From Komagataeibacter saccharivorans (GTDB lineage Bacteria; Pseudomonadota; Alphaproteobacteria; Acetobacterales; Acetobacteraceae), in the NCBI RefSeq assembly GCF_003207825.1, contig NZ_NKTY01000008.1, positions 1 to 64,000 of the forward strand: a stretch of 64,000 nt of DNA, read 5' to 3'. The stretch's first letter is position 1. Each line of letters opens with the position of its first letter. The notes under the pieces were generated by a model. That model was not told the origin of the DNA and did no database searches. It worked only from the letters and a program-made list of their open reading frames with translations. The translations under genes were made by a program, and so were the position numbers. Shown one piece after another: positions 2,008 through 35,899 of this stretch.

Positions 2008-3378
2008 ATGAGCCCCTATCGCACCATCAACCCGGCTACCGGCAAGACGGAAAAGGTCTTTGACCTTCATGACGACAAGACGATGCACGCGAAACTGTCC
2101 ACCGCCCATCAGTTGTGGGAAAGCGACTGGCGGCACCGTTCCATCGCGCAGCGCAAGGCAGTCATGCTCAAAGCTGCGGAAATCCTGCGCAAGGACAAGG
2201 AGAAGCACGCCCGCCTGATTTCCATCGAAATGGGTAAGATTCTGCCCGAAGCCATCGGGGAAATCGAGCTTTCGGCTGATATCCTCGCCTACTACGCGCA
2301 AAAGGCTGAAACCTTCCTGGCACCACGTGAACTGCCGGTATCCCGGGGACACGCCATCGTCACTAACGAACCGCTGGGCATCATCTATTGCGTGGAACCC
2401 TGGAACTTCCCCTATTATCAGTTAGCCCGCGTCGCGGCCCCCAACCTGATGGCGGGTAATGTCGTAATGGTCAAACACGCGCCCAGCGTGCCACAATGCG
2501 CGGTGGCGTTTGAAGAACTGTTCCGTGAAGCAGGCGCACCCGAAGGTGCCTATACCAATCTGTTCATTACCAATGACCAGTCGGAAAAGCTGATCGACTG
2601 CCCCGAGGTACGCGGCGTCGCCCTGACCGGAAGTGAACGCGCCGGTAGCGCCGTTGCATCTCAGGCGGGCCGTGCGCTGAAGAAAAGTACGATGGAATTG
2701 GGCGGATCGGACGCGTTCATCGTGCTGGATGATGCCGATCTGGATAAAGTCGTGCCGCTGGCCATCAGTGGGCGCATGTCCAATAACGGTCAGGTCTGCA
2801 CCGCCGCCAAGCGGATGATCGTACATAAGTCGCTGGTTGAGGAATTCACGTCACGTCTGAAAACGGCTGTGAACGAATTCGAGTATGGCGACCCGCTGGA
2901 ACAGGGTGTCAGCCATGGACCGATGAGCAGTCAGGCCGCCATGGAACGGGCCATTTCACAGGTGGAAAAAGCCGTATCCCACGGGGCCGAACTGGTTGTG
3001 GGCGGCAAGAAGATCGACCGCGAAGGTTTTTTCATGAAGGCCGCGATCCTGACCAGCATCACCAGAGACAACCCCATTTTCTATGAGGAAATATTTGGGC
3101 CTGTCGCCATCATCCATTCCGTCGGGAGTGACGATGAGGCTGTCGCTCTGGCCAATGATTCACCATATGGCCTGGGTGGTTCCATCCAGACCAGCGATGT
3201 AGAGCGTGGCCGCCGCGTTGCGGCACGGATCGACACGGGCATGGTGTTCATCAACAACATTACCGGCACTGCGCCCGACCTGCCATTTGGCGGGATCAAG
3301 AACTCCGGTTATGGCCGTGAACTTTCCGAATTTGGTATTGAGGAATTCCTGAACCGCAAGCTGGTTCATACTCCCTGA
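2008..3378 (+). CDS. NAD(P)-dependent succinate-semialdehyde dehydrogenase (Sad/YneI type)
   Basis: This is a 456-residue aldehyde dehydrogenase of the short Sad (YneI) type (E. coli Sad is 462 residues). It oxidises succinate semialdehyde or a related aldehyde to the acid in the cytoplasm. The family marks are all present: EPWNFPYYQ and KHAPSVPQ in the cofactor-binding half, the general base Glu230 in MELGGSD, the nucleophile Cys264 in NNGQVCTAAKR, EEIFGPVA and the C-terminal FGGIKNSGYGRE. The start ATG opens directly into the conserved YRTINPATG beginning. It is monocistronic and followed by a good terminator. A paralogue of similar length lies at 15435-16826. The exact aldehyde used cannot be told from the sequence. 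Confidence 0.92.
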   Translation: MSPYRTINPATGKTEKVFDLHDDKTMHAKLSTAHQLWESDWRHRSIAQRKAVMLKAAEILRKDKEKHARLISIEMGKILPEAIGEIELSADILAYYAQKAETFLAPRELPVSRGHAIVTNEPLGIIYCVEPWNFPYYQLARVAAPNLMAGNVVMVKHAPSVPQCAVAFEELFREAGAPEGAYTNLFITNDQSEKLIDCPEVRGVALTGSERAGSAVASQAGRALKKSTMELGGSDAFIVLDDADLDKVVPLAISGRMSNNGQVCTAAKRMIVHKSLVEEFTSRLKTAVNEFEYGDPLEQGVSHGPMSSQAAMERAISQVEKAVSHGAELVVGGKKIDREGFFMKAAILTSITRDNPIFYEEIFGPVAIIHSVGSDDEAVALANDSPYGLGGSIQTSDVERGRRVAARIDTGMVFINNITGTAPDLPFGGIKNSGYGRELSEFGIEEFLNRKLVHTP

Positions 3379-33366: not shown

Positions 33367-34278
33367 ATGACCGTCAGCCCTGACACCACACGATCAGCAT
33401 GGGAAAGAAACCGCCTGCGGGAGGAGGTTCTTGACGATATTGACGAAGAAATCGAACTGGAACTCGACGATGCGCGTCTGGGTTCGGAAAAGGATTCCGA
33501 TACGCTCGATTTCCGCAAAACCTACTTCCGTGACCTGCTTTCCCTGCAGGGTGAACTGGTCAAGCTGCAGGACTGGATCAAGGATACCGGCCACCGTCTG
33601 GTCGTGATCTGTGAAGGCAGGGACGCGGCGGGCAAGGGCGGTGTCATCAAGCGCATAACCCAGCGCCTGAACCCCCGCATCTGTCGCGTCGCCGCCCTGC
33701 CCGCCCCCAATGACCGGGAACGGACCCAGTGGTATTTCCAGCGTTATGTCAGCCATCTTCCCGCCGCCGGTGAAATCGTGCTTTTCGACCGGAGCTGGTA
33801 TAATCGTGCGGGCGTTGAACGGGTCATGAATTTCTGCACGGATGAGGAATATGAAGAGTTTTTCCGTGCCGTCCCCGAATTTGAACGCATGCTGGTGCGC
33901 AGCGGCATCCAGATCATAAAATACTGGTTCTCCATTTCCGATGATGAACAGGAACTGCGTTTCTGTGCCCGTATGGAAGACCCGCTGAAGCAGTGGAAGC
34001 TCAGCCCCATGGATCTGGAAAGCAGGCGTCGGTGGGAGTCCTATACCCTCGCCAAGGAAATCATGCTGGAACGGTCCAATATCGACGAAGCCCCCTGGTG
34101 GATCGTGCCTGCCGATAACAAGAAGAAAGCCCGCCTCAACTGCATAAGCCACCTTCTGTCTCAGGTTCCCTATCAGGAAATCGAGAAGCCTGAAGTGCGG
34201 TTGCCCGAACGGGTATTCAGCCCGGATTACATCCGCCAGCCGGTGCCGGACAGCATGATCGTTCCCGAAAAATATTGA
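33367..34278 (+). CDS. ppk2: polyphosphate kinase 2
   Basis: A 303-residue single-domain PPK2, which transfers phosphate between polyphosphate and nucleotides. Walker A is GRDAAGKGG at residues 84-92, followed by VIKRITQRLNPR. Walker B FDRSWYNRAGVERVMNFC lies near 140, and a lid region with RFCARMEDPLKQWKLSPMDL follows, all typical. The acidic N-terminus (DDIDEEIELELDD) is variable. Length and motif set suggest class I (ADP to ATP or GDP to GTP) but the class cannot be proved here. It is monocistronic. The PiT phosphate transporter gene lies 2 kb downstream beyond the transferred-looking island. Confidence 0.92.
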   Translation: MTVSPDTTRSAWERNRLREEVLDDIDEEIELELDDARLGSEKDSDTLDFRKTYFRDLLSLQGELVKLQDWIKDTGHRLVVICEGRDAAGKGGVIKRITQRLNPRICRVAALPAPNDRERTQWYFQRYVSHLPAAGEIVLFDRSWYNRAGVERVMNFCTDEEYEEFFRAVPEFERMLVRSGIQIIKYWFSISDDEQELRFCARMEDPLKQWKLSPMDLESRRRWESYTLAKEIMLERSNIDEAPWWIVPADNKKKARLNCISHLLSQVPYQEIEKPEVRLPERVFSPDYIRQPVPDSMIVPEKY

Positions 34279-34308
34279 AATAACGGGCCGATTTCAGAAA
34301 CCATAAGG

Positions 34309-34354
34309 AAGTTTTTGGTGAAGCTTTTTGAAAAAAGGCGACACCAAAGAACTT
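34309..34354. repeat. imperfect palindrome after ppk2
   Basis: A 12-base arm (AAGTTTTTGGTG) is matched by CACCAAAGAACTT with one extra base, around a 21-base AT-rich centre that can itself pair in part (GCTTTTT with AAAAAGGC-like). It starts about 30 bases after the ppk2 stop and could act as its terminator. The transposase fragment stops exactly at its right edge, which suggests that the element was involved in, or marks, the truncation. Confidence 0.5.
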
Positions 34355-34355
34355 T

Positions 34356-34686
34356 GTCCGTTTTGACGCTTTGGCTGTCAATTACGAGCAATGAGGGCTG
34401 CTCATCCCTACCGGCTGCTTTTCTCACCATGCCATAAAGGTCATAGTGGATGTGTCGCCATCGCCCCCGCTTTTTGCAGGTCGGCAAAATAACCGTACAC
34501 CGTTCGCCAAGGTGGGAAGTCCGTGGGCAACCCACGCCATTTGCAACCATGTGTCACCACATACATGATGGCATCGACTACCCGGCGCATGTTTGCTTCC
34601 CTCGGACGGCCACCTTGCTTTGCCCTTGGGATGTGGCTCCTGATTAACCTCCACTGTTCGTCAGTGAGGTCCGTGCCGTAGCTCAT
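34356..34686 (-). pseudogene. broken IS5-family transposase
   Basis: The ATG at 34686 opens MSYGTDLTDEQWRLIRSHIP, then KQGGRPREANMRRVVDAIMYVV, CKWRGLPTDFPPWRTVYGYFADLQ. This is the N-terminal half of IS5-family (IS427-like) transposases. Near 34470 the frame shifts by one base and continues in the next frame as WRHIHYDLYGMVRKAAGRDEQP and VIDSQSVKT, the first catalytic Asp segment of the DDE domain. The match ends at about 34356, directly at the palindrome. The rest of the DDE domain and the right end are missing, so the element is dead. Confidence 0.75.
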
Positions 34687-34831
34687 TGGTATGAATACAA
34701 CCCGGAAGTAGTTTCGATATATTAACAATAATTGTCGAAGCTCAAGTTTCATTTTTATAATATCGTTATAAATCAGCCTGTTAGCTTTTATATAGTATGG
34801 CGATTTATCATGTGCTATTGTGTATGTGCGC

Positions 34832-35015
34832 TTGGTCGCGCACGAAAAAACGAAGTGCCTCCCCTTGTCGGGTGGCCTGCGAATACAACACCCGGCTTCG
34901 GCCAATTGTGGTGGATGGCGACGGCTGTTCATTGCGATGGGAATAAGCAGGGCAGCGTTTACTTCGTTTATCGTTGCGACCAACCACCTGACGCCAGGAG
35001 GCGTCAGCGTTTTTT
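34832..35015 (+). ncRNA. candidate structured RNA (or long palindromic element) with terminator
   Basis: The ends of the segment pair over about 20 bp: TTGGTCGC, ACGA and AAACGAAG on the left (34832-34855) with CTTCGTTT, TCGT and GCGACCAA on the right (34962-34983), with two tiny bulges. Inside, TGCCTCCC can pair with GGGA and GGCA, and GTCGGGTG with CACCCGGC as a hairpin (34867-34874 with 34889-34896). Four bases after the closing helix there is a textbook Rho-independent terminator. Paired arms in several blocks plus a terminator in the same direction suggest a stable RNA transcribed to the right. A MITE-like transposon with long terminal repeats is the main alternative. I do not recognise a known RNA family, and no coding frame here is convincing. 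Confidence 0.45.
34988..35015 (+). terminator. strong Rho-independent terminator
   Basis: An 8-bp stem CTGACGCC/GGCGTCAG with an AGGA loop is followed by CG and six T residues. It has no protein-coding gene directly upstream on the plus strand, which supports the idea that the structured segment before it is transcribed. Confidence 0.8.
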
Positions 35016-35197
35016 AACGTCCTTGGTCGGACACCAAAAACGAGGTTACAATAGATGCTTCAAAAAGTGGCGGAATCACCGCCATTCGTTGTGCCTATTC
35101 AGGAACATAACGTAAACATAAACCCTTTGGAACTTATCCTCCAACCAGAACACAGCAACAGATACGCAAGGTATTTTTCAATACCCCGTTTGGATAT

Positions 35198-35899
35198 ATG
35201 CGTTTTCGACGCCCCTTCGTCGAAAGGTTCAAGCAGGAATGTAAAGGCCCTGTAGATTCATATCTGTTTGGGTTGAAGGTTCGGTTTTATCCGCAGGACA
35301 ATCAGACTGATGCCAAGTCAGCAGTCTGCGGAAACTGCTACAACGCCAAGGAATGGAGGTGGCTGGACAAGTGCCTGCCTGCTGGTGGCACCTTCCTTGA
35401 TATAGGAGCGAACATGGGGTTCTTTTCGCTGTTTGCTGCTACCAAAAGGGCCAGGATCATCGCCATTGAACCACAGCCTACGCTCTTTGATCGGCTTTTC
35501 ACCAACATGGCTCTCAATGATATTGAGGCATATCTGGTCAAAGCTGCCGTAGGTGAAAGAGATGAAACTGGCACCCTGATCCAAACCAATATGGATTACG
35601 GTGGTGGCACCATTGGTCAGGGTCATGGAGAAACCGTTCGTATCCGGCCTTTGCTGGATATCCTGACCGATGCCAGAGTCAACAAGGTTGATGTGTTGAA
35701 GATCGACATTGAAGGATATGAGGACCGGGCTTTAATGCCCTTTTTCAGGGATGCACCCTCAACCTTATTTCCCTCACACATCATCATGGAATACAGCGAG
35801 AGTGATCGCTGGCAATCAGACCTGATGGGCAAACTGGCTCAGGCTGGATACCGTCAAACGGCACGTAGCAGAGGTAACGCCCTGCTATCACGCAAATAG
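35198..35899 (+). CDS. FkbM-family methyltransferase
   Basis: A 233-residue SAM-dependent methyltransferase of the FkbM family. Motif I is GGTFLDIGANMGFFSLFAA (near residues 63-81). AIEPQPTLFDRLFTNMALND follows as motif II, then a KAAVGERDETG-like strand and DVLKIDIEGYEDRALMPFF, the family's late motif. Such enzymes O-methylate sugars or small metabolites, often in polysaccharide or glycan loci. Base composition is visibly more AT-rich than the surrounding genes, and the gene sits in an island with a dead IS5 copy, so transfer is likely. The first 35 residues are less typical, and an upstream part may have been lost. No neighbour shows its substrate. Confidence 0.82.
   Translation: MRFRRPFVERFKQECKGPVDSYLFGLKVRFYPQDNQTDAKSAVCGNCYNAKEWRWLDKCLPAGGTFLDIGANMGFFSLFAATKRARIIAIEPQPTLFDRLFTNMALNDIEAYLVKAAVGERDETGTLIQTNMDYGGGTIGQGHGETVRIRPLLDILTDARVNKVDVLKIDIEGYEDRALMPFFRDAPSTLFPSHIIMEYSESDRWQSDLMGKLAQAGYRQTARSRGNALLSRK

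Follow-up and report, generated by a model that had tools for sequence, protein, structure and literature searches.

The stretch of Komagataeibacter saccharivorans DNA analysed here, called the window throughout, is 64,000 nucleotides long and contains a structured element at positions 34832-35015. It lies, as the earlier note had stated, between a broken IS5-family transposase gene just upstream (about 34227-34752, minus strand) and an FkbM-family methyltransferase gene downstream. Two K. saccharivorans plasmids are the best named matches, with 98.6% and 98.4% identity over all 511 queried bases. An early break interrupts the FkbM frame in the window's assembly, which might reflect genuine decay or an error in sequencing; two K. 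saccharivorans plasmids have the frame whole. The IS5 frame is longer at the equivalent place in the JH1 plasmid of K. saccharivorans.

The plus strand of 34832-35015 folds at -84.4 kcal/mol, against -61.7 +/- 4.5 kcal/mol for 200 dinucleotide shuffles (z -5.0), none of which folded as well; the description of the element as highly structured is thereby borne out. As the minus strand is likewise structured (z -4.1, 1 of 200 shuffles), the strand is not given by folding alone. In the best fold, 34832-34865 pairs with 34949-34983 in a closing helix of 30 bp with bulges, and a terminator hairpin (34986-35010) starts two bases after this helix. A terminator scan returned 34988-35007 followed by CGTTTTTT, in agreement with an element that had been called terminator-ended. 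The closing helix proposed in the earlier note is thus present, but it is longer than the approximately 20 bp given there and is made of two functional box pairs plus flanks. Its supposed 8-bp inner hairpin is in fact a larger arm of 21 bp with interruptions (34895-34919 with 34924-34948). The limits need a similar correction: structure is contained in 34832-35015, but the functional unit extends past 35015 up to the start codon at 35055. The parts of this unit, in their order along the window, are the following:

34814-34819, plus strand, possible -10 hexamer GCTATT, 8 nt ahead of the a1 hairpin, picked by eye in the upstream alignment
34828-34841, plus strand, a1 hairpin GCGC-TTGGTC-GCGC, read from the sequence, with box a1 TTGGTCG at 34832-34838
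34832-34856, plus strand, target mimic a1/b1, the outer 5' strand of the closing helix
34848-34856, plus strand, box b1 AAACGAAGT, exact complement of b'
34867-34992, plus strand, RNA core with guide boxes b' and a', between mimic and target
34867-34875, plus strand, 5' strand of stem P1, GTCGGGTGG, pairing with 34984-34992
34876-34951, plus strand, P2 arm, CCTGC (34876-34880) pairing with GCAGG (34947-34951), with an extra apical arm
34952-34977, plus strand, P3 hairpin of 6 bp, its loop displaying guide box b' ACTTCGTTT (34961-34969)
34977-34983, plus strand, guide box a' CGACCAA, exactly complementary to both a1 and a2
34984-34992, plus strand, 3' strand of stem P1, CCACCTGAC, overlapping the left arm of the terminator
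34988-35015, plus strand, intrinsic terminator with an 8-bp stem and loop AGGA, then CGTTTTTT
35019-35032, plus strand, leader hairpin GTCC-TTGGTC-GGAC, with box a2 TTGGTCG at 35023-35029
35023-35046, plus strand, target a2/b2, over the FkbM ribosome-binding site
35038-35046, plus strand, box b2 AAACGAGGT, complement of b' if one G-U pair is allowed
35055-35899, plus strand, FkbM-family methyltransferase gene, proposed target, its start matching the annotation in two K. saccharivorans plasmids

One strand of the closing helix, ACTTCGTTT ... CGACCAA, is complementary to two sequences, the upstream TTGGTCG/AAACGAAGT and the leader TTGGTCG/AAACGAGGT. Both strands of the helix are thus guide or target boxes and the 5' strand is repeated in the FkbM leader, which the earlier reading had missed. 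The GAGG of b2, nine bases before the start codon, is likely the Shine-Dalgarno sequence of FkbM. A hexamer of the GCTAT/GATAT type was seen by eye at the same place in most copies of the upstream alignment; a generic sigma-70 scan ignores GCTATT and selects TTGTCG-18-TATAAT at 34732-34761, about 65 nt further upstream.

When 147 genomes, those of relatives and the window's own, were searched at the DNA level, 16 gave matches, the own one included. Once aligned, the copies share a conserved core, GTCGGGTGGCCTGC-AATACAACACCCGG...GGGAATA-GCAGG...CCGCCCGACGCCAGG, and their outer strands are variable. A covariance model of the core built from this acetic-acid-bacterial group (R1) recovered 69 matches, spread over 42 of the 397 family genomes searched. 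In a sample of 289 genomes from the class, 17 had a match, and both genome counts include the window's own. Over the 16 copies and 31 core pairs, 97.2% of the cells are paired, 26 cells are changed on both sides (8.1 +/- 2.1 in shuffles) and the covariation score is 0.348, compared to 0.227 +/- 0.012 in shuffles and 0.05-0.12 when slid. The number of pairs with a double change is less striking, 7 against 5.1 +/- 1.3, a value reached by 58 of 500 shuffles. Both sides have changed at all 5 aligned pairs of the P3 stem, whereas covariation is neutral on stems P1 and P2 because both vary little; its support falls chiefly on the P3 stem and the inner arm. The search in acetic acid bacteria and the test for compensatory changes that the earlier note had called for thus both came out positive, and its proposal of a structured RNA gene on a transferred stretch is upheld by the single copy in the genome, the homologues in the family and the covariation of the core. 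We infer from the sequence that the RNA is expressed.

The covariance-model search, also called for, found no Rfam family reaching its gathering threshold across the whole 64-kb window, and blastn against a phage collection returned no match to the element. The nearest family is sRNA-Xcc1 (RF02221), which aligns to 34867-35000 with 28.4 bits, below its gathering cut-off of 53 (E 0.0097 in 701 bases, E 0.14 in 10 kb). In a phylum search at E 0.001, RF02221 matched 57 of 398 genomes (39 over the cut-off), none of the 14 named control genomes and nothing in the window's genome. Sibling loci were matched in 6 of 10 cases in all. Among the first five, with E up to 0.1, these are L003 (37.2 bits) and L015 (33.9), with no match to L006, L008 and L018. 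Among five more, with E up to 1, these are L127 (36.6), L074 (35.8), L079 (32.5) and L121 (30.3), with no match to L128. Three of nine more distant class relatives were matched too (L148, 43.5; L142, 38.2; L147, 30.9). Conversely, R1 finds 9 of 30 RF02221 loci at the same place with E up to 0.01; homology of the present group and sRNA-Xcc1 is found in both search directions. The two share the P1/P2/P3 plan and, in the P2 arm, the conserved internal loop AATACAA / GGGAATA. They differ in core length (132 positions here versus 87).

To compare guides with leaders, each guide was scored against its own and every other copy's leader, as two ungapped complementary boxes in the right order. From 68 loci we kept 54 distinct copies, dropping 9 identical cores and 5 that were short or without P2, and split them by eye into group I (18 copies, the window included) and group II (36 copies). 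Over the 54 copies, the sum for own leaders is 763.9 against 666.8 +/- 12.0 for swapped leaders, and was reached in none of 20,000 permutations (maximum 723.1), numbers that overstate independence because the copies share ancestry. The own leader ranks first in 11 of 54 copies, one of which is a group II row with a guide of only 3 bases that scores zero and whose tie was counted as first. A single guide thus frequently fails to single out its own leader, and it is the sums that carry the claim. Looser scorings used before gave a weaker separation, and the guide was trimmed to the P2-P1 stretch after these weaker results had been seen. The first scoring placed 7 of 14 own leaders first; in the second, the sum was 826.2 versus 725.3 +/- 13.6, yet the own leader came first for none of 45 guides; in the third, it came first in 5 of 45 (666.5 versus 592.4, maximum 638.1) and in 6 of 14 (218.6 versus 178.2, maximum 207.3).

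The signal separates by group. In group I, own leaders sum to 332.4 versus 248.9 +/- 9.9 (maximum 298.6) and own upstream boxes to 398.0 versus 271.1 +/- 15.4 (maximum 350.4). In group II, the own upstream strand gives 672.6 versus 486.1 +/- 16.8 (maximum 559.7), and the leader directly downstream shows no match (431.5 versus 430.5 +/- 7.7, 36 copies); L009, L011, L015, L077 and L102 are examples in which the upstream mimic is kept and the downstream leader is without a match. The loops upstream and downstream in group I mostly read TTGGTC, TTGGCA, GTCGTA or GTCGCA, with small departures, and the sequences indicate that the three parts (a1/b1, guide and a2/b2) change together among group I copies. 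The genes after the module differ between these copies, yet the boxes follow each leader. A Pfam scan covered 15 of the 18 downstream frames, all but those of L001 (the window's own copy), L121 and L126. It detected Methyltransf_21 (FkbM) in L008 and L085, and elsewhere glycosyltransferase families 8 and 25, TM2, bPH_2 and two SHOCT. Nothing in Pfam was matched by 6 of the 15 scanned frames; L006, a short frame, is an FkbM homologue by eye and only below the Pfam cut-off.

The same layout was found in sRNA-Xcc1 itself, whose founder was established as a discrete 88-nt RNA of Xanthomonas by Northern blot and end mapping (PMC2996969). From a sample of 50 RF02221 loci, 5 could not be parsed, which left 45, and 3 more were dropped, which left 42 for the box tests. 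RF02221 loci too carry a1/b1 and a2/b2 boxes: own downstream leaders sum to 598.6 versus 508.1 +/- 9.8 (maximum 554.2) and own upstream boxes to 719.3 versus 577.1 +/- 10.7 (maximum 619.6), the own leader ranking first in 12 of 42. A terminator-like GCGGTATTTTTGTGCC, with at most 4 changes and within 230 bases upstream of the core, is present in 22 of 42 loci, a count made with no chance control; the present group is without such a hairpin between b1 and the core. Among the 45 mechanically chosen downstream frames, 17 match Pfam: SymE 5, Bro-N 5 (one below cut-off), Rha 4 (one below), and KilA-N, P22_AR_N and Rap1a 1 each. The other 28 gave no Pfam match, some of them probably being wrong frames. 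Three of the Bro-N frames (L025, L034 and L036) begin over 110 nt beyond the RNA, so that the boxes precede a shorter intervening frame. In all, 16 of the 45 loci precede phage antirepressor-type or SymE genes, in contrast to the surface and membrane genes next to the present group. A 2025 integron cassette study likewise reports sRNA-Xcc1 upstream of symE (PMC12444791). The locus L030 also has a sub-threshold c4-2 match (2890-2958, minus strand, 34.8 bits against a cut-off of 41), about 1.3 kb upstream of the sRNA-Xcc1 copy that precedes the P22_AR_N antirepressor gene.

Such an arrangement matches that of the C4 antisense RNA of phages P1 and P7. C4 is described as cut from a longer transcript by RNase P, with a b' loop that partly covers the ribosome-binding site and a specificity that comes from a' (PMC5320573), and the C4 and c4-a1b1 motifs are listed by Weinberg et al. 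2010 (PMC2864571). In the phage P1 record, the order is a1, b1 (putative targets), C4 RNA, a2, b2, icd, ant, and the boxes TTGACAG and GTTAGTG match CTGTCAA and CACTAAC in C4. The present module has the same order of promoter, a1-b1, RNA, a2-b2 and gene. By comparison with the consensus, the fold plan agrees as well, consisting of a closing stem P1, one hairpin arm, a hairpin with b' in its loop, and an a' left unpaired ahead of the 3' strand of P1. In both, b' and a' are complementary to b2, close before the start codon at the ribosome-binding site, and to a2 of the adjacent downstream gene, and a second target pair, a1-b1, lies upstream. Box a1 is in a hairpin loop, and an a2 hairpin can be drawn by eye in phage P1.

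The differences are as clear. No match to the C4 models RF01695, RF02944 (c4-2) and RF03163 (c4-a1b1), which form clan CL00128, was found in 34600-35300 with E up to 5, and R1 does not find the C4 of phage P1. The present core has the AATACAA/GGGAATA internal loop and the extra arm, and its a1-b1 lies directly against the core; phage P1 has between b1 and C4 a terminator-like hairpin GCGGTATTTTTGTGTCC, seen by eye, which is absent here. The target here is an FkbM methyltransferase and not the icd/ant antirepressor operon. The isrK model (RF01394) overlaps, below its cut-off, the a1-b1 part and beyond upstream of C4 in phage P1, and was not found in the window. As for RF02221, boxes, upstream hairpin and downstream genes agree, so that this family has the build and placement of C4. 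RF02221 carries no clan in the Rfam 15 output, and the C4 and RF02221 models do not cross-match, so that the agreement in topology and layout may stem from common descent or from convergence. One report names both "C4 antisense" and "sRNA-Xcc1", listed as separate annotations (PMC12189769). In the literature searched, no paper joins sRNA-Xcc1 with C4 as one kind or pairs C4 RNA with symE and antisense, and no title on antisense or small RNAs of acetic acid bacteria concerns such a module.

Taken as a whole, the element is quite probably a C4-type antisense RNA module. It is best read as a C4-type antisense switch that would repress the translation of its neighbour, in a compacted form and moved onto surface and membrane cargo genes. 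The earlier reading, partly supported overall, had overlooked that the RNA belongs with the sRNA-Xcc1/C4-type antisense systems. We infer transcription, processing and repression from the layout as follows. Transcription would begin near 34826, just before the a1 hairpin, and a single transcript would carry a1-b1, the structured RNA and then the a2-b2 leader of FkbM. In the uncut precursor, the guide boxes would be held by the upstream mimic a1-b1, forming the closing helix. Once the core is cut free or refolded, b' in its hairpin loop and the single-stranded a' would become displayed. The mature RNA (approximately 34867 to 34998) would then pair through b' and a' with b2, over the ribosome-binding site, and a2, blocking FkbM translation. 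The long precursor helix is part of the best computed fold in all 18 copies of group I and in 32 of 35 copies of group II, and it beats the P1 fold by a median of 12.2 kcal/mol in group I and by 3.4 in the window; because it is favoured, release by processing or folding kinetics must be assumed. The modelled gain of core plus leader over their separate folds amounts to no more than about 3.4 kcal/mol, calculated with a program that cannot draw loop-loop pairing.

A terminator follows the RNA in this copy, and therefore most transcripts would stop before FkbM. With the P1 3' strand lying within the terminator left arm, the two folds could in the window also set read-through, P1 pairing speculatively opposing the terminator. 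Such control would be local, because a run of five T after the hairpin is present in only 2 of 18 group I copies. The alternative that the locus is a purely cis-acting attenuator, in which a1b1:b'a' plus terminator versus the P1-P3 fold sets FkbM read-through with no separate antisense RNA, draws on this overlap. It also draws on the closeness of the two folds in the window (-86.3 versus -84.8 kcal/mol, although another computation sets them 3.4 kcal/mol apart, as above) and on the short distance from terminator to start codon, which leaves a separate promoter little space. We consider it unlikely: the scarcity of T-runs and the median difference of 12 kcal/mol, which keeps the folds apart in most copies, argue against it, and attenuation alone needs no a2/b2 repeat over the ribosome-binding site that co-varies with the guide.

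Much less probable still is a free trans-acting sRNA with distant targets, the way in which sRNA-Xcc1, the nearest family, appears in print. The title of Chen et al. 2011 calls it trans-acting. The group II copies, having no leader target next door, would suit this view. However, the guides of group I and of RF02221 fit the adjacent leader better than swapped leaders, and when 4 genomes were searched for exact matches to the paired boxes of one group II guide, no trans target came up; all 4 hits fell within the RNA genes themselves, on the opposite strand. The one weak exception downstream of group II lies at 100-210 nt (z 3.2, one of 19 bins; the 36 copies of this bin test include a duplicate of a group I core and leave out the 3-base guide). 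Finally, a MITE, or some other inverted-repeat relic with no role in regulation, would account for an imperfect inverted repeat of this length next to a dead IS5 copy, and the earlier note already leaned away from it. It is highly improbable: the core is conserved and shows compensatory changes, the repeat arms vary in step with the downstream leader, a third sequence, and the genome has one copy in 3.35 Mb where several dispersed near-identical ones would be expected.

Retaining the C4-type antisense switch, we put forward, tentatively and with rather less than even confidence, a wider proposal. The C4 plan might be a portable, retargetable silencing cassette used beyond phage immunity, and all RF02221 RNAs, including copies treated in the literature as virulence or vesicle RNAs of plant-associated bacteria, might be C4-type modules aimed at their neighbour gene. 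The acetic-acid-bacterial form, compacted by fusion of the mimic to the core, would keep surface and membrane cargo on mobile DNA off, and its target-less sister group would act in trans or as a decoy. The C4-type reading gives the sRNA-Xcc1 family a testable target rule, namely that the next gene's leader is the place to search; recent work predicts 212 targets inside Xylella for such RNAs, with more in plants (PMC12189769). An RNA design known from phage immunity here adjoins surface-sugar and membrane genes of vinegar and cellulose bacteria, beside which a ready-made retargetable repressor would be useful.

Tandem copies of the module occur approximately 390-420 nt apart in three genomes, G733 (C1, C4), G815 (C12, C13) and G633 (C4). 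One Xylella island has five sRNA-Xcc1 copies at intervals of about 380 nt, by their printed coordinates (PMC12189769).
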